Origin: a virus
DNA: 31,098 bases
IMG/VR virus record: IMGVR_UViG_3300025133_000420
Location: 1 to 31,098 of that record
Strand: one strand, 5' to 3'
The notes below the pieces were generated by a model. That model saw only the letters and a list, made by a program, of their open reading frames with translations. It made no database searches and was not told the origin of the DNA. Positions 3,093 to 22,554 of this stretch are shown here, one piece after another. Made by a program: the position numbers and the translations under genes. Each line of letters starts with the position of its first letter. Positions within the stretch are counted from its first letter, which is position 1.

Positions 3093-4898
3093 ATGCAATT
3101 ACTACAAGATATTTTTATTATTGAGCAGCTTCAGGTTCTATCCGAAGGAAAAACTAACGGTCCTATGAAAATTCGTGGGATTTTTGGTCGTTGTAATGAG
3201 AAAAATAATAACGGTAGAATCTACCCTACTGCTGTTTTAGAGAGCCAGCTTGCGAAAGTGCAGCCCCTTATCGCAGAGCGCAGACTATGCGGAGAGCTTG
3301 ACCATCCTCAGAATGATACAGTTAAATTATCCAATGCATCTCATCTTATTACTAAATTAGATATGAAGGGTAATGATCTTATTGGCGAAGCGGAAATCTT
3401 AAAAACCCCTGCTGGGCTCACTGCAAAAGCTCTAGTTGAAGGGGGAGTAAAAATTGGCATTTCCTCTAGGGGGATGGGGACTCTTTCTGAAGACCATAAT
3501 GGGGACAAGATTGTTAATGAAGATTTTCGTCTTGTAACCTTCGACCTTGTTGCTGATCCATCAACTAGAGGTGCATTTCCTGGTCTCTCTGAGTCTACTG
3601 AATCTAAGTTTGTTCGTGATTCCCAATCCAAGCTTAAGAAAGAAGGAACTTTTGTTACCTTGTTAGACTCCAAGATGCGAGACGCTTATCAGCCTTGGAT
3701 TGAAGAAGATTCTAAGAAAGGCTACCCAGGAGTAAAGGGGGGAACCAAAGCTGCAAGGAGAATAGAAAAAAAAATAAAGCATAATCCTACTTGCGAAGCT
3801 TTCGAACTAGTAAAAGCTGATGGTCACTGGCATAGGATTGCTACAACTTTAGTTGAAGCATTTGCTGACTCTATTAAGGATCTTGAGAACAATAAGCAAG
3901 CTCGTCAAAATGCTGATCGTGGAAGTGTTGCTGATCGTCTTCATTTTATGCGAGCAAGAAGGTCTTCTGCTAAACTAAAAAAGGACAAGAGGGACAGGAT
4001 CAGAGCCGCTAAGAAACGGGGTCGAAGACAGACGGATACACGAACAGCAGCTTCAGGAAGAAGGTCAGGCTCGCGTAAGGGGGCCTCTAATCGTAGAGAG
4101 GATGCGGGAACTGTTTACCACCAAAAGGGAAATCTTGTTCTGGAAAACTATAACGCTGATTCAATAGCCCTTCAGGGGCGTGGAATTGGCATTGGGGCTA
4201 GTGAAAGGCTTAGAGGTCTTCGTTCACACCAGAGAAGTGTGGCTAGAGATGACGCTAGAAACACGATTCGTAAAGCTAAGGCTGGGGTCATAGCGAAAAA
4301 TATTGAAGCTAAAGGAGCCGTAAAAGCGAAAGATATTAATGCTAAAGGAGCCGCAAAAGCGAAACTTAGAGCGACCAGAGATCAAACTAAATTAAGTAGA
4401 GTCCAGGCCCAACAGGCTCAGAGGCAATCCATTGAGAAAGCGGCAGTCGCTTCCGCAAAACCAGGAAGCATTGAAAACATCGGTCTTGGAGGAGCAGCCA
4501 GAAGAGCAGGTATGGGCGCGGTAAGAAAGGGTATTGATATGACCCGTGGAACCGCAAGAGCCATTAGGCACCCCATTAGAACTGGCAATCGCCTGAGAAG
4601 TTTTGTTAGCCGTAAGTTGGGTAGAGAAGATCAAGCCGCTGCTTACATGCAGGTAGGCTATATGCTTGCTGAGATGTTTAATCTTATAGAAGACACAGGG
4701 GAAGCTTATGGTAAAACTACTAAACCTAGGGGCACAGAAGGCGAAGGGGCAGTGCGAATCAAAGGGAAATTAAGAGTACCAGTAGGTGTTAGAGGTAGGC
4801 TACGTATAGATCCTAAAACTGGTAAGGTAGGAAGATCTGATATTATCAAAGGATTAGCTAACAGACCTAACAAACCTGGGGAAACCCAAAAAAGCTGA
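3093..4898 (+). CDS. 21: Prohead protease (T4 gp21-like) fused to a long basic C-terminal region
   Basis: This encodes 601 residues, against about 212 for T4 gp21. Residues 1 to about 175 match the gp21 prohead protease family: NGRIYPTAVLE, GELDHP (His71), a VKIGISSRG segment with Ser124/Ser125, and VADPSTRGAFP. The His and Ser are probably catalytic. From about 185 onward the protein is Lys/Arg/Ala-rich and disordered-looking, with an 11-residue tandem repeat near 401-422. The motif W246-HRIATTLVEAFAD and the related Y518-MQVGYMLAEMFNL occur in this tail. VLSE near the N-terminus and LVE, LAE and LIE in the tail could be self-cleavage sites, since gp21 proteases cut after (I/L)xE. The most likely reading is a protease that carries an internal head protein as its own tail. 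The protease assignment is strong. The cargo idea is inference. Confidence 0.85.
   Translation: MQLLQDIFIIEQLQVLSEGKTNGPMKIRGIFGRCNEKNNNGRIYPTAVLESQLAKVQPLIAERRLCGELDHPQNDTVKLSNASHLITKLDMKGNDLIGEAEILKTPAGLTAKALVEGGVKIGISSRGMGTLSEDHNGDKIVNEDFRLVTFDLVADPSTRGAFPGLSESTESKFVRDSQSKLKKEGTFVTLLDSKMRDAYQPWIEEDSKKGYPGVKGGTKAARRIEKKIKHNPTCEAFELVKADGHWHRIATTLVEAFADSIKDLENNKQARQNADRGSVADRLHFMRARRSSAKLKKDKRDRIRAAKKRGRRQTDTRTAASGRRSGSRKGASNRREDAGTVYHQKGNLVLENYNADSIALQGRGIGIGASERLRGLRSHQRSVARDDARNTIRKAKAGVIAKNIEAKGAVKAKDINAKGAAKAKLRATRDQTKLSRVQAQQAQRQSIEKAAVASAKPGSIENIGLGGAARRAGMGAVRKGIDMTRGTARAIRHPIRTGNRLRSFVSRKLGREDQAAAYMQVGYMLAEMFNLIEDTGEAYGKTTKPRGTEGEGAVRIKGKLRVPVGVRGRLRIDPKTGKVGRSDIIKGLANRPNKPGETQKS
4293..4358 (+). 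repeat. 33-bp tandem repeat in the protease tail
   Basis: Two consecutive 33-base units (4293-4325 and 4326-4358) encode AKNIEAKGAVK and AKDINAKGAAK. A partial third unit (GCGAAA) follows. The units differ at only a few bases, indicating recent duplication within the basic C-terminal region of the gp21-like protein. Confidence 0.75.
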
Positions 4899-14516: not shown

Positions 14517-14550
14517 AGGCTCAGTCTGGTATTGCAATCAGACTGAGCCT
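14517..14550 (+). terminator. Hairpin terminator after the tube gene
   Basis: A perfect 12-bp stem (14517-14528 with 14539-14550) with a 10-base loop is followed by CTCTTTAACTT. It ends the sheath-tube transcript in the same way as the hairpin after the capsid gene. Confidence 0.75.
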
Positions 14551-14562
14551 CTTTAACTTAGC

Positions 14563-14573
14563 TATAATATAAT
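14563..14573 (+). promoter_or_regulatory. Tandem TATAAT next to start codon
   Basis: Two overlapping TATAAT hexamers (14563-14568 and 14568-14573) lead straight into the ATG at 14574. No -35 element and no ribosome binding site are visible. An RNA started 6-7 bases after the first hexamer would begin at or next to the ATG, giving a leaderless message. This resembles the elements at 17639, 18705 and 20347. Confidence 0.45.
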
Positions 14574-17114
14574 ATGGATTATTTTTCAGAACTATTAGAC
14601 AGTTACTCAAGGCTTAAGAAGCGTACATTCAAATTAACATACATTAATGAAGCAGAGGAAAAAAAGCCAGAAGAGGACCCCGCTCTAGGATCACAGGACG
14701 AATCAGATTCCGGGTTAGCTGCTGCTGAAAATTTTTTAAAAACTAATCTAACCTCTATCCTAGCTGCTACTAGCCAATCTAAATTTGAACAGCTCACAGG
14801 GGGAACCACCAAAGAGGGTGAACCCATTAGTATTGTTATGTGGCAGGCCAAGGATAAAAACGCTGGTACTGCCGAAAATCCAATGGGTGTTGATTTTATA
14901 AAAGCTAGTCAAGGATATACTCAATTTGGATCTGTTGCTGATATAAAAGGAGTTATTTTAGGCTCTTTTAAAGCAAAGAAAAGTTTCTCTAAGTTTATAT
15001 CGTTATTTGTTCCCAAGGGGGAAAAGAAAGATTCCACGGATGCAGATAAGGCTCTAACATCTGACGAAAGATTACGGCAACAAGAAGCGGAGATGGCGGC
15101 AGCGGCAGAACAAGAGAGAATTGATACCCTGTTTAAGCTTGGAGGAGCTTTTATGCTAATGGGTAGAGATTCAGAAGAAATTAAATCAGTAGTAAAAAAT
15201 TTACAAAAATCTTCTGCTGCTATAAGAGATTTTTGTTCAAGTTACCCTGACGCAAAAGAAAACCAGGGAGCAATAAAAAATATTTGTAGGTCTCCTGGTG
15301 CTTATATTGGGGGTATATCTAAATTTGGGTTTGAATACAAGCTTGCGAAAGGAAAAACTATTTCCTATGATCCAGAGACAGGGGAACAACTTGGAGCCCA
15401 GCCAATTAGCTCTGCATTACTTTTAGAAATTACAGACTCTCATGCTGCTTTAACTAATTTTTTAACCTGCGATAAAGATTCTCCCCCTGCGGGTGTAAAT
15501 AGTTGTAATTGCGCGGGTATGTCTAATCGAGTAGGGTTTTTGAATGAAAAATTGGTATTATTTGGATCTGAGACTACTCAAGGAGTGGTATTCAAACCTA
15601 ATTCTATGCAAGAGTTAGCTGCAAGTATGATGTTTCAGAAGTGTGGTTCTGACCAAGGTTCCTATACGAATATTGTTGCTTCCACATTAGCTACTAATAC
15701 AATTAATACCATTAAGGGAACTTTTAACGAGTTGATTCTGCAAGCAGGAGTAGGTTTCCTAAGTGCAAAAACCCCTGAAGAAAAGCACACTGCTTTTTCT
15801 AACCTAGCATATGAGATTAATAAAAAGCGATCTAATTTACTTGCTTATGCTAAAATTCAAGAACAGAAATCAGATATAGCTCTAGGTCTTGATGAAGCGT
15901 TTGATACCGAAACGCTTCTAGAGCAAGCTGGAATTGCTTCTGATCCAAAAAGCCTTCAGACTTGGTTTTTACAAGAACTTAAATATCAATGGGATTTTCT
16001 TAAACTAGTAGATGCAGATGGAGTTTTATCCACAGGAAAAGAGGTCCTAACAGGCGATAGAGCTGACACAAAACTTCTTTACAAAGACGAAAACAAGTTA
16101 AGAGAAGTAGCTAAATTTTTTGGTATAGATTTTAAAAATAAGTCCTTAGAGAAAGATCCTGAAAGCGGAATGTTTGTTTTAGGAGTTGGGCAAAAAAGGC
16201 AGCATAATATTTTGGATGGTATAAAGCAAGGAGAGATAAACTCAATTAGGCGACAAAAGATCCTTATGTCTGAGAATGCTAGTGCCCAAGATAAAAATCT
16301 AAAAGGGGGTTTCTTTAGTACTATTCGTAAGATGCAATTTCCTTCATCAAGTAGTACTAGATTTAATAGCGCCCTTAAATTTTATGAAGATATAGAAAAT
16401 ACTATTGAAAAGAACACAGAAAAATTAACCAAGTCTACCACTTATAGTAATAATGGCAGTACCAAGCTTTTAACTCCTTCAAAAATTATATCTAATTTAA
16501 CAGGTATTGTAAAAGAATCTCTAAGCTTTTCTCAGCTACAAGGTACGCCTTTAGGTAAAGCCATGTTTAATTTAGATGGATCTGAATTAGATTTTTCTGA
16601 CCCAATTATTCAAAAAAGATTAGCTGAGGTTGTTCAAAGAACTGCTAGATTTAAAATGTACAATGATGCTCTTGAGGGGGATGACCCAGATAAAAAACAA
16701 GCTGCTAGAGACGCACTAATTAGAGCATCTCTTATTTCTGGAGCTAATGATACTCCCATTGTTCAACTAGTGACAATTGACGCTGGGAAAAGTTTTGCTG
16801 TTAATCATAACGAAGCTTTCGAAGCTGTTTGTAAGGCCAATAATGATAATCCAGAATCCTTAGAAGTCAAAATTTCAGGTTTTACAGTCACCTTTACTAC
16901 TCCTGAAGGTATATCTTATTCCTATAGTCAAGAGCGTTCTGAGGGTTCTGATGGTGCTCCTGTAACTCGTAGTCTAACTAAAATGAAGCAGGAAACTTTA
17001 AGAAAGCTTACTAAAATCAAGTCTAAGTCTGGTGCTACTAATGAAAGTACTCTTCATAAATACTTGGAAGGTCAAAAAAAGTTACTTGAAGTTTTGCTTA
17101 ATCAAACCAAATAG
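14574..17114 (+). CDS. Large unrecognised protein with cleavable-looking leader
   Basis: This encodes 846 residues of no family I recognise. Residues 1-26 are amphipathic and basic (SYSRLKKRTFKLTYINE) and end in INE26 followed by Ala27, a good (I/L)xE protease site; an acidic, disordered linker follows. Residues 160-200 contain a charged helix. The rest is mixed alpha/beta, with a Cys-containing segment near 300-330 (TCDKDS..NSCNCAG) and a C-terminal coiled helix. No membrane segment or known enzymatic motif is visible. It follows the tail module behind its own TATAAT element. A protein injected with, or enclosed with, the DNA is one possibility. Its 3' end overlaps the convergent resolvase gene by 17 bases. 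Confidence 0.6.
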   Translation: MDYFSELLDSYSRLKKRTFKLTYINEAEEKKPEEDPALGSQDESDSGLAAAENFLKTNLTSILAATSQSKFEQLTGGTTKEGEPISIVMWQAKDKNAGTAENPMGVDFIKASQGYTQFGSVADIKGVILGSFKAKKSFSKFISLFVPKGEKKDSTDADKALTSDERLRQQEAEMAAAAEQERIDTLFKLGGAFMLMGRDSEEIKSVVKNLQKSSAAIRDFCSSYPDAKENQGAIKNICRSPGAYIGGISKFGFEYKLAKGKTISYDPETGEQLGAQPISSALLLEITDSHAALTNFLTCDKDSPPAGVNSCNCAGMSNRVGFLNEKLVLFGSETTQGVVFKPNSMQELAASMMFQKCGSDQGSYTNIVASTLATNTINTIKGTFNELILQAGVGFLSAKTPEEKHTAFSNLAYEINKKRSNLLAYAKIQEQKSDIALGLDEAFDTETLLEQAGIASDPKSLQTWFLQELKYQWDFLKLVDADGVLSTGKEVLTGDRADTKLLYKDENKLREVAKFFGIDFKNKSLEKDPESGMFVLGVGQKRQHNILDGIKQGEINSIRRQKILMSENASAQDKNLKGGFFSTIRKMQFPSSSSTRFNSALKFYEDIENTIEKNTEKLTKSTTYSNNGSTKLLTPSKIISNLTGIVKESLSFSQLQGTPLGKAMFNLDGSELDFSDPIIQKRLAEVVQRTARFKMYNDALEGDDPDKKQAARDALIRASLISGANDTPIVQLVTIDAGKSFAVNHNEAFEAVCKANNDNPESLEVKISGFTVTFTTPEGISYSYSQERSEGSDGAPVTRSLTKMKQETLRKLTKIKSKSGATNESTLHKYLEGQKKLLEVLLNQTK

Positions 17115-17653: not shown

Positions 17654-18046
17654 ATGGATACTGAACAAACAGGTATTAAGCTAGATGTTAATAAGTGGAA
17701 AATCCGTATTGAAGAGCGGAGCAAGAATCGTATGAAGCTACAAATTAAACTTTCGAAGGATGAAGCTATTGCTTTTAAAAATTTCTCTGATGTATGTAAG
17801 CCCCAGGAGATTACAGATGATTCCTTCATCAAGACTGTGTTTATCACTGGGATCGAGGCTTTGAACAAGCAACTTGCAGAGATGGTACAGAAGTACGCTG
17901 CTGAGAATAAAGAGGAGCTTGCATCTTCAGGAATTACTGTTATCGAAGATGAGGATGGGGAAGTACGCCTAGCGGAAACTGATTCCTTGGAGTCTCAAGT
18001 TTCAGGAAGCTCTGATTTTGTGGCCCCAAAGAAGTACGAAGGCTAA
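17654..18046 (+). CDS. Unrecognised acidic protein, possibly leaderless
   Basis: This encodes 130 residues from the ATG at 17654. An upstream in-frame TTG at 17615 would lie inside the divergent gene and upstream of the promoter, so it is rejected. Residues 25-80 (LQIKLSKDEAIAFKNFSDV and FIKTVFITGIEALNKQL) suggest a strand-helix-helix unit, followed by a helix and an acidic disordered tail. A small DNA- or polymerase-binding protein is possible, but no family is recognised. The stop overlaps the next start by one base (TAATG), so translation is coupled. Confidence 0.6.
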   Translation: MDTEQTGIKLDVNKWKIRIEERSKNRMKLQIKLSKDEAIAFKNFSDVCKPQEITDDSFIKTVFITGIEALNKQLAEMVQKYAAENKEELASSGITVIEDEDGEVRLAETDSLESQVSGSSDFVAPKKYEG

Positions 18047-18366
18047 TGTTCAAATTAAACTTTCTGAAAAAGGAAAATGATCTAAATAAGATCATTAAAC
18101 AACAGAGAAGGGAAAGATCAGCTATAAACATTTTGTTTGTATCCCTGTGGGATAAACATTCTAAATCTTTAGTTGATAAGATTAAGAAGCGTTATGAAAA
18201 CTCTCATCGGGGCCAGCCTCTTTTTATTGTAGATAGTTTTCATATGCCTCATAGTTTTGTTATTTATAACACTACTAAGTTGCCCCACCTAGTACGCTTG
18301 ACCAATAGAGGAATTCAATCAGAGGATTATCTTTCTATGATTGAGAAGACTTTAAAGATTACATAA
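18046..18366 (+). CDS. Thioredoxin-fold-like protein lacking cysteines
   Basis: This encodes 106 residues. After a basic helix, the order INILFVSLWDKHSKSLVDKI, PLFIVDSF, MPHSFVIY, LPHLVRL and a final helix matches a thioredoxin fold, with MPHS in the place of the cis-proline loop. The usual WCxxC is replaced by LWDKHS, and the protein has no cysteine at all, so it cannot act as a redox thioredoxin. It may be a structural or polymerase-accessory variant. GAAGG precedes the start. Its 3' end overlaps the convergent sigma factor gene by 8 bases. The fold call is from pattern only. Confidence 0.6.
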   Translation: MFKLNFLKKENDLNKIIKQQRRERSAINILFVSLWDKHSKSLVDKIKKRYENSHRGQPLFIVDSFHMPHSFVIYNTTKLPHLVRLTNRGIQSEDYLSMIEKTLKIT

Positions 18367-18700
18367 AATCATCTTTGCGCCTCTCAATGTAATTTTCTAT
18401 TTTTTTTGTATACTTTTTATCCCGTGTGTATTGTAATTTTAAATTGTTTACAATTATTGTAGTAAAATAGTTGAAAGCTGATCCTTTTTTAGGTTTGAAG
18501 TTTTTTACCGTTTTCAGTACTAGAGTAAAGCATTCTTGTTTAGCATCATCGGGATCTACTTTGAACTTAAAAGAGTCTATAATATTAGTAATTAATAAAT
18601 CAAATAAACAAACTAACTCTTCTTCGTAATCTTTTGGACCCTGTTGGTATAATAGAATGATTTCTTCGAAGCGTTTATTGTCGATATAATAGTTTTCCAT
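18359..18700 (-). CDS. 55: Late transcription sigma factor, T4 gp55-like
   Basis: This encodes 113 residues (T4 gp55 is 185). The order of elements fits the sigma region 2 part of gp55-like factors: YYIDNKRFEEIILLYQQG, two helices, DPDDAKQECFTLVLKTVKNF, PKKGSAFNYFTTIIVNNLKLQY and a Lys/Arg-rich end. Such factors direct the host RNA polymerase to -10-only late promoters; exact TATAAATA elements lie at 4930 and 7377. A recognisable region 4 is absent, as in gp55. TATAAT lies 5 bases before the ATG with no ribosome binding site, suggesting a leaderless message. Partner genes (gp33, gp45) are not seen in this window. Confidence 0.7.
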   Translation of the reverse strand: MENYYIDNKRFEEIILLYQQGPKDYEEELVCLFDLLITNIIDSFKFKVDPDDAKQECFTLVLKTVKNFKPKKGSAFNYFTTIIVNNLKLQYTRDKKYTKKIENYIERRKDDFM

Positions 18701-18733: not shown

Positions 18734-19789
18734 ATGGGTTACGAGTTTTGGGAAGGATCGCAAGAGGGGACTGAGTTAGATAAATTATACTCAGGTCATA
18801 AAACATACGGGGATAATCCTTTATGTGAGGGCTGTTCGATACTGAAAAAAAGCAAGCCTTGCTATTCGGTCATGGACTATGTGGGACTTAAGGAATCCCC
18901 TGTGTTGTTTCTATCAGACTCTGTAAAATATAAGCTAGGAAATACTACTGCCTTTAGCAAAGCAGAAACTGCCCTTATTAGAGAATCATATAAGGAAGAT
19001 TTTCAAGCGGCAGCGGCAGTAAAATGCCCATCAGTTAAAGATAAAGATATTACTCCTGCTGATATGGGCATTTGCCGAGTACACTTGGAGGCTACCATTG
19101 ATAAGGTTAAACCAAAACTGGTTTTCCCTTGTGGTAATCTAGCTATGAAGATGCTTGTTAAGAAGAGTGGTATCACAAATAAGAGGGGTAAGTCTTATGC
19201 GTTTACAACTGCTTTGGGGCATAGTTGTACTGTTGTTCCTCTTTACCACCCAAGTTCCTGTATCATGGAACCTCGTCATCTCCCCCTCTTCAAAAAAGAT
19301 ATTCAAAATGCTTATGAGAAGTATATCCTAGGCAGGAAGAATGAAGGAAACTTTTCATACGAAGTTCTTATGGAGATAGACCAAGTACAGGCTATTGCGG
19401 ACAGGCTAAAAGATTCTAAGGAGGCTATAGCAGTAGATCTTGAGACCACAGGGCTGAACTTTTTGAAGGATAGTATTATGTCAATTTCTTTCACCACTAG
19501 GGAGGAAACATATGTTATCCCTTTAGACCACAAAGACAGTCCTTTTAGAGATTGGAGACAATCTGCCCCGCAGGTTTGGAACTACCTCAGGCAAATTTTA
19601 GAGAATCCTAAGAGCAGGAAGGTATTTCATAATGCTAAGTTTGATCTAAAGTTCCTGATTAACTATGGAATCTATACTAAGAATGTGTGGGACACTAAGA
19701 TCATGCACCACTTACTAGATGAGAATATGCCTAAGAGTTTGATGGACCTTACTAAACTTTACTTCGCTAACGAGCTAGAAGATCTTTAA
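18734..19789 (+). CDS. polA: DNA polymerase A, N-terminal piece: UDG-like domain plus partial 3'-5' exonuclease
   Basis: This encodes 351 residues. Residues 25-195 are a family-4-type uracil-DNA-glycosylase-like domain. Its four Fe-S cysteines are conserved (C31, C34, C98, C114) and so is HPSS (172-175), but the GEAPG motif near residues 61-69 is replaced, so uracil excision is doubtful. Residues 215-351 begin a DnaQ-like proofreading domain: Exo I VDLETT (D235, E237) and Exo II HNAKFD (D304). The gene stops before Exo III, which lies in the next piece at 20359, beyond two antisense genes. N-terminal UDG-like domains are known in other phage family A polymerases. GGGG precedes the ATG. Confidence 0.85.
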   Translation: MGYEFWEGSQEGTELDKLYSGHKTYGDNPLCEGCSILKKSKPCYSVMDYVGLKESPVLFLSDSVKYKLGNTTAFSKAETALIRESYKEDFQAAAAVKCPSVKDKDITPADMGICRVHLEATIDKVKPKLVFPCGNLAMKMLVKKSGITNKRGKSYAFTTALGHSCTVVPLYHPSSCIMEPRHLPLFKKDIQNAYEKYILGRKNEGNFSYEVLMEIDQVQAIADRLKDSKEAIAVDLETTGLNFLKDSIMSISFTTREETYVIPLDHKDSPFRDWRQSAPQVWNYLRQILENPKSRKVFHNAKFDLKFLINYGIYTKNVWDTKIMHHLLDENMPKSLMDLTKLYFANELEDL

Positions 19790-19799
19790 TTACCTACGA

Positions 19800-20060
19800 C
19801 TATCCCCGATTCTCCTTGGCCCGATTCTCCTTGGATTGGTGTGCCATTCCCGATGATACAGATCTGTGGCCTGCCTTCTTAAGGCTCTCCCTTCTCTTTT
19901 TATTTACTTTGGCAGTTTTGGGATCTTTTAGCTCTCGATTTGCCATTTCTTGTCCAATTTTAAAGGCTCGTTGGGTGTCTGTCCCAACATCCCTACCTAA
20001 CCCTAAAGCTTCAGTTACAAAGTAAGCCATCGTAGTGTATAATTCTATTTTAGATTCTTT
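19800..20060 (-). CDS. Small basic protein with N-terminal Y-motif
   Basis: This encodes 86 residues from the ATG at 20058-20060. A start 16 codons further upstream would overlap the neighbouring gene, and AGGA lies 8 bases before the chosen ATG. Residues 9-22 read YTTMAYFVTEALGL, the motif shared with its neighbour, the gp21-like protease tail and the 392-residue basic protein. The rest is Lys/Arg/Ser-rich, ending in a duplicated KENRA/KENRG. It follows the similar gene at 20068-20325 with a 7-base gap, and the two look like diverged duplicates. An internal head protein with a targeting or processing leader is inferred. No known family is recognised. Confidence 0.6.
   Translation of the reverse strand, partial: KESKIELYTTMAYFVTEALGLGRDVGTDTQRAFKIGQEMANRELKDPKTAKVNKKRRESLKKAGHRSVSSGMAHQSKENRAKENRG
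19805..19834. repeat. Tandem 15-bp duplication
   Basis: The 15-mer CCCGATTCTCCTTGG occurs twice without a gap (19805-19819 and 19820-19834). It duplicates five codons (AKENR) at the C-terminus of the small minus-strand protein. Confidence 0.85.
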
Positions 20061-20067
20061 CATGATA

Positions 20068-20325
20068 TTAGTCCTGGCCTTCGCCTTTTGCGTTTCTCTC
20101 AACCTCATCGGTATGTCCTTTAGCTATTCCCTGTGCTACTTTCTTCCTACTCGTTCCTAATAAGTTTGTAACTTTTCTTTGAAGATTTGCTTTAATAGCT
20201 CTAGGACTATGCTTTATCCTTGGATTTTCCACAGGTTTGCCTCCTAATAATCCCTCTGCTACAAGAATACCCATAGTTTTATAAGTATTCCAAACTGATT
20301 CGCCTATTCTTTCGTATTTATCCAT
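20068..20325 (-). CDS. Small basic protein with N-terminal Y-motif, paralogue of neighbour
   Basis: This encodes 85 residues. AGGAG lies 7 bases before the ATG, and TATAATA on the minus strand (20347-20353) forms its likely promoter. Residues 15-28 read YKTMGILVAEGLLG, matching the motif of the next gene (YTTMAYFVTEALGL) in spacing and residue type. The remainder is basic (SPRAIKANLQRK, GTSRKKVAQG) and likely disordered. A short motif-bearing leader followed by a basic body is what T4-type internal head proteins look like. It is transcribed against the polymerase gene it interrupts. The function is inferred only. Confidence 0.6.
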   Translation of the reverse strand: MDKYERIGESVWNTYKTMGILVAEGLLGGKPVENPRIKHSPRAIKANLQRKVTNLLGTSRKKVAQGIAKGHTDEVERNAKGEGQD

Positions 20326-20346
20326 AATTGTACTCCTACCAATCTC

Positions 20347-20353
20347 TATTATA
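20347..20353. promoter_or_regulatory. Bidirectional -10 element TATTATA at the cassette edge
   Basis: The element lies between the minus-strand gene and the second polymerase piece. On the plus strand TATTAT (20347-20352) lies 6 bases from the ATG at 20359, which lacks a ribosome binding site. On the minus strand TATAAT lies upstream of AGGAG and the ATG at 20325. Confidence 0.5.
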
Positions 20354-20358
20354 TAGCC

Positions 20359-20838
20359 ATGCTCACCATAGATAACCCTAAAAAATTCGATTGGGCTAAT
20401 ATGGATTTGTCCGATTGCTGTGAAGGCAACGCGATGGATACTTACTTTACCCTTAAGCTCTTCGATCTAATCATGGAAAAGTTAGAGGGGCAACCCGTTA
20501 TGAAACTCCTTGAGAATGTTGTAATGCCTTCTCTCGAAACCTTTGCCGAGATGGAGTATAATGGGTTGGATGTGGATCTTAACATGTTGGGATCCGTAGG
20601 TAAGCAGTTACGGTCTAGTAACATGGAGGAAGAAGACTTCCTTTATACCTGTAAGGGTGTAATGAAGACTGATAATCTCTCTTCAAATGGGGACCTGATT
20701 GAAATTCTTTATACTAGAGAGGAAGGTATGGGACTGTACCCCCCTGATAAAACTCCAAAAGGTAGCCCATCTGTGGCTGCTCCAACCCTTAAACTTCTCC
20801 TTGAACATATCGAAGATGAGTTAGAAAACCGTGGGTAA
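20359..20838 (+). CDS. polA: DNA polymerase A, middle piece with Exo III and start of polymerase domain
   Basis: This encodes 159 residues. The N-terminal NAMDTYFTLKLFDLI carries the Exo III aspartate (D27), completing the exonuclease begun at 18734. The usual Exo III tyrosine four residues before it is glycine. The rest (VVMPSLETFAEMEYNGLDVD, then a charged helix, KGSPSVAAPTLKLLLEHI) is the link into the thumb of family A polymerases. The gene lacks a ribosome binding site and has TATTAT 6 bases upstream. It ends at a TAA that overlaps the GTG start of the next piece by 8 bases in the +1 frame. Alone it would be inactive, so it must act with the other two pieces. Confidence 0.8.
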   Translation: MLTIDNPKKFDWANMDLSDCCEGNAMDTYFTLKLFDLIMEKLEGQPVMKLLENVVMPSLETFAEMEYNGLDVDLNMLGSVGKQLRSSNMEEEDFLYTCKGVMKTDNLSSNGDLIEILYTREEGMGLYPPDKTPKGSPSVAAPTLKLLLEHIEDELENRG

Positions 20839-21928
20839 TTGGCAGCACAGAGATGAAGGGAAACGAATTAGTAAATCTGTTATAGCAGGTAAAACTAAGG
20901 AAGAATTAGTAGATGCTAAGAAATTTCTGAAAGGGTTATTGGATCTTCGTAAGTCTGAGAAGCTAACTAAGACTTATATCCAAGGAACTAGAAATGCAAT
21001 TGCATACAATGAGCACGATAAAATTTATGTAGATTACCGCTTTGATGGTACAGCCACAGGAAGGCTCTCTTGCGCTGCCTATACGGCTCAGAAAGCCATG
21101 GGAGTATCTTTCCATACTCTGCCCCGTGAGACAAAAAACAACATCAGGAGCCTGTTTAGGGCTCCTGATGGCTGGGCGTTTGTTACTGCCGATTACGCAG
21201 CGATGGAACTGAGAGTCCTGTCTCATATTGCTAAAGAAGGTAATATGCAACTAGCTTTCAATCAAGGAGCTGATCTCCATACTTATACTGCAAGACTCTT
21301 GTTCAATAAGGATAATATTTCTAAGCAGGAGAGGCAGATTGCTAAGACGGTATCCTTCCTTATTGTATACGGGGGAGGAGCATTTAATCTTAGTGAGACT
21401 ATGGGTATATCTCTTAGTAAAGCAAAGAAGATTATCAAGGACTATGAGAATGTATACCCTGGTATTTTTGGGTATATGGAGTTCGTTAATAAATTTATCC
21501 TAGATAATGGATATGCCTATTCTATCTTTGGTAGAAAGAGGAACCTGCCTGATGTATATAGTAGGAACCCTAAGATAGTTAATCGTGCCTTGCGCCAAGG
21601 ACTAAACTTTACTATTCAAAGTGCAGCCTCTGACATACTTTTAACTACTCTTTTAGGAGCTTCTGATAGATTTAAAGAGGCAGGAATGCAAGCCAATTTT
21701 GAATCCAGACCAGTGGCTACTGTGCATGACTCCATTGAAATTGTATGTCCTCAAGAAGAGGTTAAGGATACCCTCACAATTCTCTATGATGAGATGGTTA
21801 ATTATCCAAAGATCAAGGACATCTTTAATATCGAGTTTGACGTACCTCTTGCTATTGATGTAGAGGTGGGCAAGTCCTTTGGGGATGGGAAAGAAATTAA
21901 CTTTGAAAACGGGATACCAATTCTATGA
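20831..21928 (+). CDS. polA: DNA polymerase A, C-terminal polymerase domain
   Basis: This encodes 365 residues from a GTG. It contains the thumb end and the complete palm and fingers: DGTATGRLS, motif A TADYAAMELRVL (D121, E126), motif B R168-x3-K172-x3-F176-x3-Y180-G, and motif C VATVHDSIEIV (H299, D300). F176 aligns with Phe762 of E. coli Pol I. The frame is open only from 20825, after a TAG, so the join to the middle piece is either a frameshift within 14 bases, a separate start at the GTG, or a one-base error in the sequence. No convincing ribosome binding site precedes the GTG. The stop overlaps the next start through ATGA. Confidence 0.9.
   Translation: MGNWQHRDEGKRISKSVIAGKTKEELVDAKKFLKGLLDLRKSEKLTKTYIQGTRNAIAYNEHDKIYVDYRFDGTATGRLSCAAYTAQKAMGVSFHTLPRETKNNIRSLFRAPDGWAFVTADYAAMELRVLSHIAKEGNMQLAFNQGADLHTYTARLLFNKDNISKQERQIAKTVSFLIVYGGGAFNLSETMGISLSKAKKIIKDYENVYPGIFGYMEFVNKFILDNGYAYSIFGRKRNLPDVYSRNPKIVNRALRQGLNFTIQSAASDILLTTLLGASDRFKEAGMQANFESRPVATVHDSIEIVCPQEEVKDTLTILYDEMVNYPKIKDIFNIEFDVPLAIDVEVGKSFGDGKEINFENGIPIL
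21142..21170. repeat. Perfect 11-bp hairpin inside polymerase gene
   Basis: CATCAGGAGCC (21142-21152) and GGCTCCTGATG (21160-21170) form a perfect 11-bp stem with a 7-base loop. It lies within the codons for IRSLFRAPDG, just before motif A. It has no T-run, so it is not a standard terminator. Confidence 0.6.
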
Positions 21929-22554
21929 AATCAAAAGAACTTTTTGAGTACTTGTTTATTAAGGCAGTAGATCATTATTATGATACTATAAATGCATATA
22001 AAGGAAATGCTAGGGATATAAAAAAAGCTGATAAACATATGGATGGCTTTAATGTTCTCTTTAAGAATGCGTTAGATAAAAAGGAAGTAGTCATTAAAGA
22101 AAAACATAAAGCTATTATTCCAGGGGCTTTTCTTAATAAAAGGTGGGATTTAGCATGTAATAATAGTGCGATGGAACTAAAAAGTATTGTGCTGTCTAAG
22201 ATGGGTAAATGCTTTTCTAATAGAGTAGAAGAAGCCATAGGAGTTGCTGCGGATCTTAGGTACGGCACTAAGGGAATGAATCTTAACTACTTTCTTGTGG
22301 TGGAAGACGATGGTGACACTAATATAAGCTCTGCATACAATGAATATACAGAGTATGTTAAATATCAACGTAAGGTGGATAAGCTTATAGGTTTCTGTGA
22401 GTATATAGAAAAGGATTTAAAGTTATATGATAATGTAGCTTGTGTCCTATTAAATAATGATAAAAGTTATACCTTTCTCTATTCAGATTTACATACCTTC
22501 CTAGATAATTGGGGGAGAGGGATTTCCAAGAAAAGGTGGCAGTTTTGGAAGTAG
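21925..22554 (+). CDS. XhoI/PaeR7I-like restriction endonuclease
   Basis: This encodes 209 residues. The core NKRWDLACNNSAMELKS followed by CFSNRVEEAIGVAADL and LNYFLVVEDD matches the PaeR7I/XhoI family, where the same order (RxWDLV, xxEFKS, FNNRxEEAIGxAxDL, LGYxFLLEDC) holds the PD-(D/E)xK site. Here the acid residues are D75 and E84 with K86. Family members cut CTCGAG as part of type II systems. No partner methyltransferase is seen in the window, so the target may be host or competing phage DNA, or specificity may have changed. It overlaps the polymerase stop by 4 bases. Confidence 0.75.
   Translation: MKSKELFEYLFIKAVDHYYDTINAYKGNARDIKKADKHMDGFNVLFKNALDKKEVVIKEKHKAIIPGAFLNKRWDLACNNSAMELKSIVLSKMGKCFSNRVEEAIGVAADLRYGTKGMNLNYFLVVEDDGDTNISSAYNEYTEYVKYQRKVDKLIGFCEYIEKDLKLYDNVACVLLNNDKSYTFLYSDLHTFLDNWGRGISKKRWQFWK

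Follow-up and report, generated by a model that had tools for sequence, protein, structure and literature searches.

A phage family A DNA polymerase encoded in three adjacent genes, with a seam that carries exchangeable genes

The virus sequence IMGVR_UViG_3300025133_000420 of IMG/VR (positions 1 to 31,098, a stretch of 31,098 nucleotides referred to below as the window) encodes its family A DNA polymerase in three adjacent plus-strand genes, p1, p2 and p3, and two minus-strand open reading frames (ORFs), a1 and a2, lie between the first two. We consider it probable that this is a three-subunit enzyme whose genes are translated separately, whose translation is coupled where the first seam is empty, whose seam accepts cargo genes and whose second gene is driven by a promoter box where the cargo is antisense. 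The split itself is read directly from the genes, and the products would then assemble non-covalently. A more far-reaching version, to which we give slightly less than an even chance, holds that the polymerase is an obligate heterotrimer cut in its proofreading domain and its thumb, that the seams exchange genes for injected or accessory proteins, and that one symmetric box serves both the cargo and a leaderless polymerase mRNA. The elements of the locus are as follows.

18734-19789, plus strand: p1, uracil-DNA glycosylase (UDG)-like domain and N-terminal part of the 3'-5' exonuclease with Exo I and Exo II (Pfam, fold model)
19790-20358, between the p1 stop and the p2 start: cargo cassette, missing in 45 of 86 distinct related junctions
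19800-20063, minus strand: a1, 87-residue basic protein of the a2 type; a longer frame starts at 20108
20068-20325, minus strand: a2, 85-residue basic protein with a conserved N-terminal peptide ending LVAE and an upstream Shine-Dalgarno (SD) sequence, AGGAG (class A alignment, motif sharing)
20346-20356: near-palindromic -10-like box, CTATATAATAG on the minus strand and CTATTATATAG on the plus strand, with TATTAT at -12 to -7 of the p2 ATG
20359-20838, plus strand: p2, C-terminal exonuclease part with Exo III and first part of the thumb region (PHROG 17, Klenow profile match)
20831-21928, plus strand: p3, remainder of the thumb, palm and fingers with motifs A, B and C (PF00476, E 1e-72)

The three products can be laid end to end on a single enzyme. 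In p1, Pfam matches cover the UDG superfamily (PF03167, residues 86-185) and the exonuclease domain DNA_pol_A_exo1 (PF01612, E 2.8e-23), with Exo I as DLETTGL and Exo II as HNAKFDLKFL, and D235 and E237 of Exo I and D304 of Exo II are invariant. In its modelled fold, p1 resembles family 4 UDG and the Klenow exonuclease; confidence is low over the last 29 residues, which adjoin the cut. The p2 profile is matched to positions 160-291 of the Klenow chain (E 9e-7), with D27 of Exo III invariant in the p2 family, and p3 contains DYAAMELR, R-x3-K-x3-F-x3-YG and VHDS, the marks of a family A DNA polymerase. Motif C reads HDS in p3, as it does in unsplit phage homologues, and the best p3 matches in a sequenced-phage collection reach only about 34% identity. 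On PHROG 17 the pieces occupy positions 537-785 (p1), 794-927 (p2) and 923-1239 (p3), so no conserved part of the enzyme has been lost. They are also colinear, over their full length, with the uninterrupted UDG-exonuclease-polymerase proteins UOF77006 and UOF81705. In an alignment to uninterrupted phage homologues, a variable loop that separates Exo II from Exo III holds the first cut. The second cut, on which the initial annotation put no stress, falls within some 20-25 family-specific residues of the thumb region that are absent from two of three unsplit homologues. The initial annotation, made from the sequence alone, had given the positions of the three plus-strand pieces and the two minus-strand ORFs exactly; its assignment of Exo I and Exo II to 18734-19789, Exo III to 20359-20838 and the polymerase to 20831-21928 is borne out by the Pfam and PHROG matches, and its cut within the proofreading domain by the alignment. 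The UDG-like domain (18734-19330) keeps invariant Cys 31, 34, 98 and 114, the iron-sulphur spacing of family 4 UDG; it has no GEAPG motif A, and its glycosylase function has probably been lost.

The same division is found throughout the relatives, all of them metagenomic or single-cell contigs. Three IMG/VR scans gave 183 sequences with the window included, many of which show one contig more than once in overlapping pieces; after reduction, 86 distinct p1/p2 junctions were compared. No fusion of p1 and p2 occurs among these 86: 45 are without an insert, and in the other 41 an insert separates the p1 stop from the p2 ATG by 151-2403 bp. Stop and start overlap at 44 of the 45 insert-free junctions (TAATG, or TGATG in L102), and L065 is a noisy contig. 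Since the insert-free relatives keep separate p1 and p2 genes, the split is independent of the cassette and the cassette is intergenic; the earlier picture of an antisense cassette lodged inside a gene, or tied to the cut, is contradicted by these 45 equally split relatives. At the second seam, p3 of the window starts with a GTG that overlaps the p2 stop by eight bases, and across lineages the overlap is either GTGnnTAA (eight bases) or ATGA (four bases) with the start codon retained. The p3 start is maintained among the relatives, and the p2 stop at that place is gone in L055 and L064. The ratio of nonsynonymous to synonymous substitution rates (dN/dS) of p2 is 0.02-0.11 for the computable pairs, including those behind antisense cargo, which denotes purifying selection, and p1 is likewise under strong purifying selection. 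With 0 fusions at 86 junctions and dN/dS well below 1, the pieces are separately translated and stably inherited. In the three UDG-exonuclease-polymerase relatives inspected from sequenced phages, the gene is whole.

These comparisons also bear on the readings in which the three frames are a single gene, or were one until recently. Three frames do resemble a broken gene, but a decayed polymerase or an assembly error has practically no chance of being right: p1 and p2 are under strong purifying selection, two loci with other metagenome ids (L001 and L002) have an identical cassette and identical junctions, and more than 80 further distinct junctions are split, so that the relatives refute a pseudogene or artefact. 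Excision of the cassette from RNA or protein, as an intron or a similar element, to give back one polymerase would suit its place at a fixed site of a gene cluster that is one gene in other phages. We regard this as extremely improbable, because relatives without the cassette have two ORFs all the same, in different frames, and removal would restore nothing; moreover, the Rfam search gave no match even at a lax threshold, neither it nor the cassette-free junctions indicate a group I or group II intron, and the cargo sequences are unrelated to each other. A single chain, made through programmed frameshifting or bypassing at the seams, draws some support from the short different-frame overlaps at both seams of cassette-free relatives, but is very improbable when whole genes occupy the seams, no conserved slippery sequence was found, and the p2/p3 frame relation depends on lineage while the start codon is kept. 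The initial annotation had left open whether the pieces act as subunits or are joined in some way. That they act together can be presumed, and their joining is left unsupported by the lineage-dependent frames, the lack of a conserved slippery site and the lack of an Rfam intron match. As a separate observation, p2 is interrupted at L032:4590-5002, where the frame changes and a little sequence is missing, through either an error or decay.

The first seam is an insertion hot spot at which genes are gained and lost repeatedly. At least five unrelated cargo types, sense and antisense, all lie exactly at the p1/p2 seam. Class A cargo consists of antisense genes for basic proteins (window, L003, L008, L009, L010, L026 and L032) and is of a fast-evolving type (dN 0.09 and dS 0.12 for L009/L010), while class B (L007, L013, L015, L028, L031, L058, L103 and others), also antisense, combines a hydrophobic segment with a lipobox-like start and is coding, with a dN/dS of 0.04-0.12. 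Sense cargo encodes a 91-residue hydrophobic protein (L040, L045, L052), a 62-63-residue protein (L042, L044, L057, L163) or a 51-residue protein (L043); mixed cargo combines a glycosyltransferase-2-like gene with an antisense gene (L075, L080, L087), and L090 carries a 2-oxoglutarate-oxygenase-like gene whose match lies under the Pfam cut-off. Mapped on a tree of 66 taxa, the seam switches between empty and filled at least 14 times, and among the four states (none, sense, antisense or both) 17 times, changes whose direction is not inferable. No homing endonuclease was recognised among the cargo, most of which was read by eye rather than profile-searched. In the class B gene at L013:4005-4505, the lipobox-like signal stands at the start and the hydrophobic segment in the second half, and class B may encode a spanin-like lysis protein. 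The p2/p3 seam of L090 holds a gene of about 190 residues (L090:3921-4995), its start and stop overlapping p2 and p3.

The window phage is a myovirus, with a gp23-like capsid protein, a tail sheath and the following protease.

3093-4898, plus strand: prohead protease of the T4 gp21 family (S77; PF03420, E 9e-24)

In T4, gp21 cleaves head and internal proteins after L/I-X-E (PMC9026906). The proteins a2 and a1 and most of the basic cargo share a peptide ending phi-x-x-phi-phi-x-E, and the basic tail of the window's S77 protease, about 400 residues long, holds the cargo motif (VGYMLAE). A targeting peptide of the [LI]-X-E type and a gp21-family protease, the sequence marks of T4-type internal proteins, are thus both found; V or F also occurs before X-E in the cargo motif. 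Because of the shared X-E peptide, the S77 protease and the specificity of T4 gp21, a1 and a2 are most likely internal head proteins, which would be co-packaged, cut by the gp21-like protease and injected. For a1, the start at 20063 is more likely than that at 20108, and no relatives of it were matched among sequenced phages. Two repeats were noticed in passing: an exact 15-bp tandem repeat of CCCGATTCTCCTTGG in two copies at the 3' end of a1 (19805-19834), and a tandem repeat at 4292-4364 in the protease tail.

The signals ahead of p2 differ with the state of the seam. At insert-free seams, a GGAG-type SD stands directly 5' of the p2 ATG, inside the last p1 codons, in 29 of 39 cases by a strict test, and a TATA box in 0 of 39; sense cargo retains the stop/start overlaps. 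At antisense-type junctions, a TATAAT-like box whose first base lies at -14 to -10 of the p2 ATG is present and an SD absent in 31 of 31 cases; the class was partly assigned by this same box, and the directions of the cargo ORFs agree with it. In the empty state, translation would therefore be coupled through TAATG and the SD at the first seam and through GTGnnTAA or ATGA at the second; with antisense cargo, the SD of p2 would be replaced by a near-palindromic -10 box 7-12 bases 5' of the ATG. From this box, transcription would probably run leftwards into the antisense genes and rightwards as a leaderless mRNA of p2 and p3. The TATTAT of the window is spaced so that the expected first transcribed base is the A of the p2 ATG, and p2 has the features of a leaderless gene, a -10 box 6-7 nucleotides 5' of the ATG and no SD. 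Among 1022 ORF starts across the loci, TATAAT is most frequent at -12/-11, and it and an SD hardly ever occur together; this signal precedes 90% of 68 sigma-like genes, 51% of 72 members of the family of the window gene starting at 17654, 44% of 93 in that of the gene at 14574 and 23% of 153 in the group containing p2. Three pairs of starts in the window (17625/17654, 18700/18734 and 20325/20359) have one symmetric box each between an SD gene and an SD-less gene, a layout from which we infer a box acting in both directions. The count of the exact box motif over the window is not above chance, and the argument for a promoter is therefore one of position, not of motif frequency. A candidate phage sigma factor, with TATAAT at -11 to -6 of its own ATG, is encoded next to p1.

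18359-18700, minus strand: sigma-70 region 2 protein, divergent from p1 (PF04542, E 2.8e-5)

A strong terminator-like inverted repeat at 14536-14574 is directly followed by CTATAATATAATATG, likely another leaderless start, behind a terminator.

The junction box could instead be only a late-type promoter for the minus-strand cargo, p2 and p3 being translated from a long p1 transcript by weak SD-less initiation. The minus strand of the window has an exact TATAAT, and a2 a normal SD at a fitting distance. This reading is rather unlikely, as it is the distance from the box to the p2 ATG that is fixed over unrelated cargo, whereas that to the antisense start varies, and other SD-less genes of the window share the box-to-ATG spacing. 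It is less plausible again, indeed quite improbable, that antisense cargo mainly shuts off the polymerase late by antisense transcription over p1: cargo runs into the 3' end of p1 in several relatives and a late-type box is plausible, yet sense genes have repeatedly taken the place of lost cargo, and selection on class B is strong at the protein level.

Some observations weigh against the three-subunit, box-driven reading that we prefer. The usual Tyr of Exo III is Gly throughout the p2 family (GNAxD), and proofreading may be altered and its activity uncertain; the claim in the initial annotation that all catalytic residues are kept holds for the acidic residues of Exo I-III and for the Asp that binds metal in each of motifs A and C, and fails at this Tyr. 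Modelled alone with AlphaFold, p2 is very poor (mean predicted local distance difference test score 38), which fits dependence on a partner and equally a shallow alignment. A two-hexamer sigma-70 scan found no -35 match on either strand for the box, so that a host sigma-70 promoter is unsupported and a phage sigma must be assumed. As for the cargo motif, it was defined on the cargo itself, and its presence in 19 of 28 (shuffled mean 1.5) is the extent of sharing rather than an independent test.

Among known systems, a close likeness is that of Aeromonas phages 25 and 44RR, whose gene 43, for a family B polymerase, is split, and in phage 25 the two polymerase parts co-purify and are active (PMC2988022). 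As in the window, the coding regions are separate, with a gene or an untranslated stretch between them. The Aeromonas enzyme, however, is of family B and in two parts, with a homing endonuclease gene in phage 25, whereas that of the window is of family A and in three parts, with many different cargo genes and no recognised homing endonuclease. UOF77006, UOF81705 and WAB25010 (Lysinibacillus phage LysYB1) have the domain order of the window, but in one chain of 804-891 residues that lacks the stretch holding the second cut. The T4 internal proteins IPI, IPII and IPIII, which have a capsid targeting sequence and are cut by gp21 (PMC9026906), resemble the window cargo in being small and basic, with a short conserved peptide ending in the [LI]-X-E type, in a phage with an S77 protease; the shared peptide of the cargo is longer and can be internal or C-terminal. 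Rhodothermus phage RM378, which the initial annotation took as a precedent for a split family A polymerase, also has polymerase functions annotated in separate genes, but these lie far apart. The piece labelled "DNA polymerase" belongs to family B, as an exonuclease domain (PF03104), and the one labelled "similar to DNA polymerase I" is a 5'-3' exonuclease. The 50 kb of RM378 that were searched hold nothing that matches p1, p2 or p3 significantly, and RM378 was rejected as a relative. In a limited literature search, no precedent was found for a three-piece family A polymerase with cuts in two domains and a cargo seam. If the reading is correct, a broad phage family that has retained a three-subunit polymerase is a natural test of how a single-chain enzyme tolerates cuts inside its domains, and of whether the supply of subunits regulates proofreading. 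The empty, sense and antisense states of the p1/p2 seam, often in close relatives, form a comparison set for how an operon takes up new genes and stays intact, and for how one symmetric -10 box may serve two divergent genes, one of them leaderless.

A member of the family at L183:6001-7065 lies on a 130.6-kb contig, by name and length the same as that of L099, from the Prochlorococcus sp. AG-409-P03 single-cell assembly; psbA had no match on that contig, and Prochlorococcus was not adopted as the host. In the window, the ORF that follows p3 (21925-22554) matches the restriction endonuclease XhoI (PF04555, E 3e-8), and a gene for an FAD thymidylate synthase (Thy1) adjoins it.

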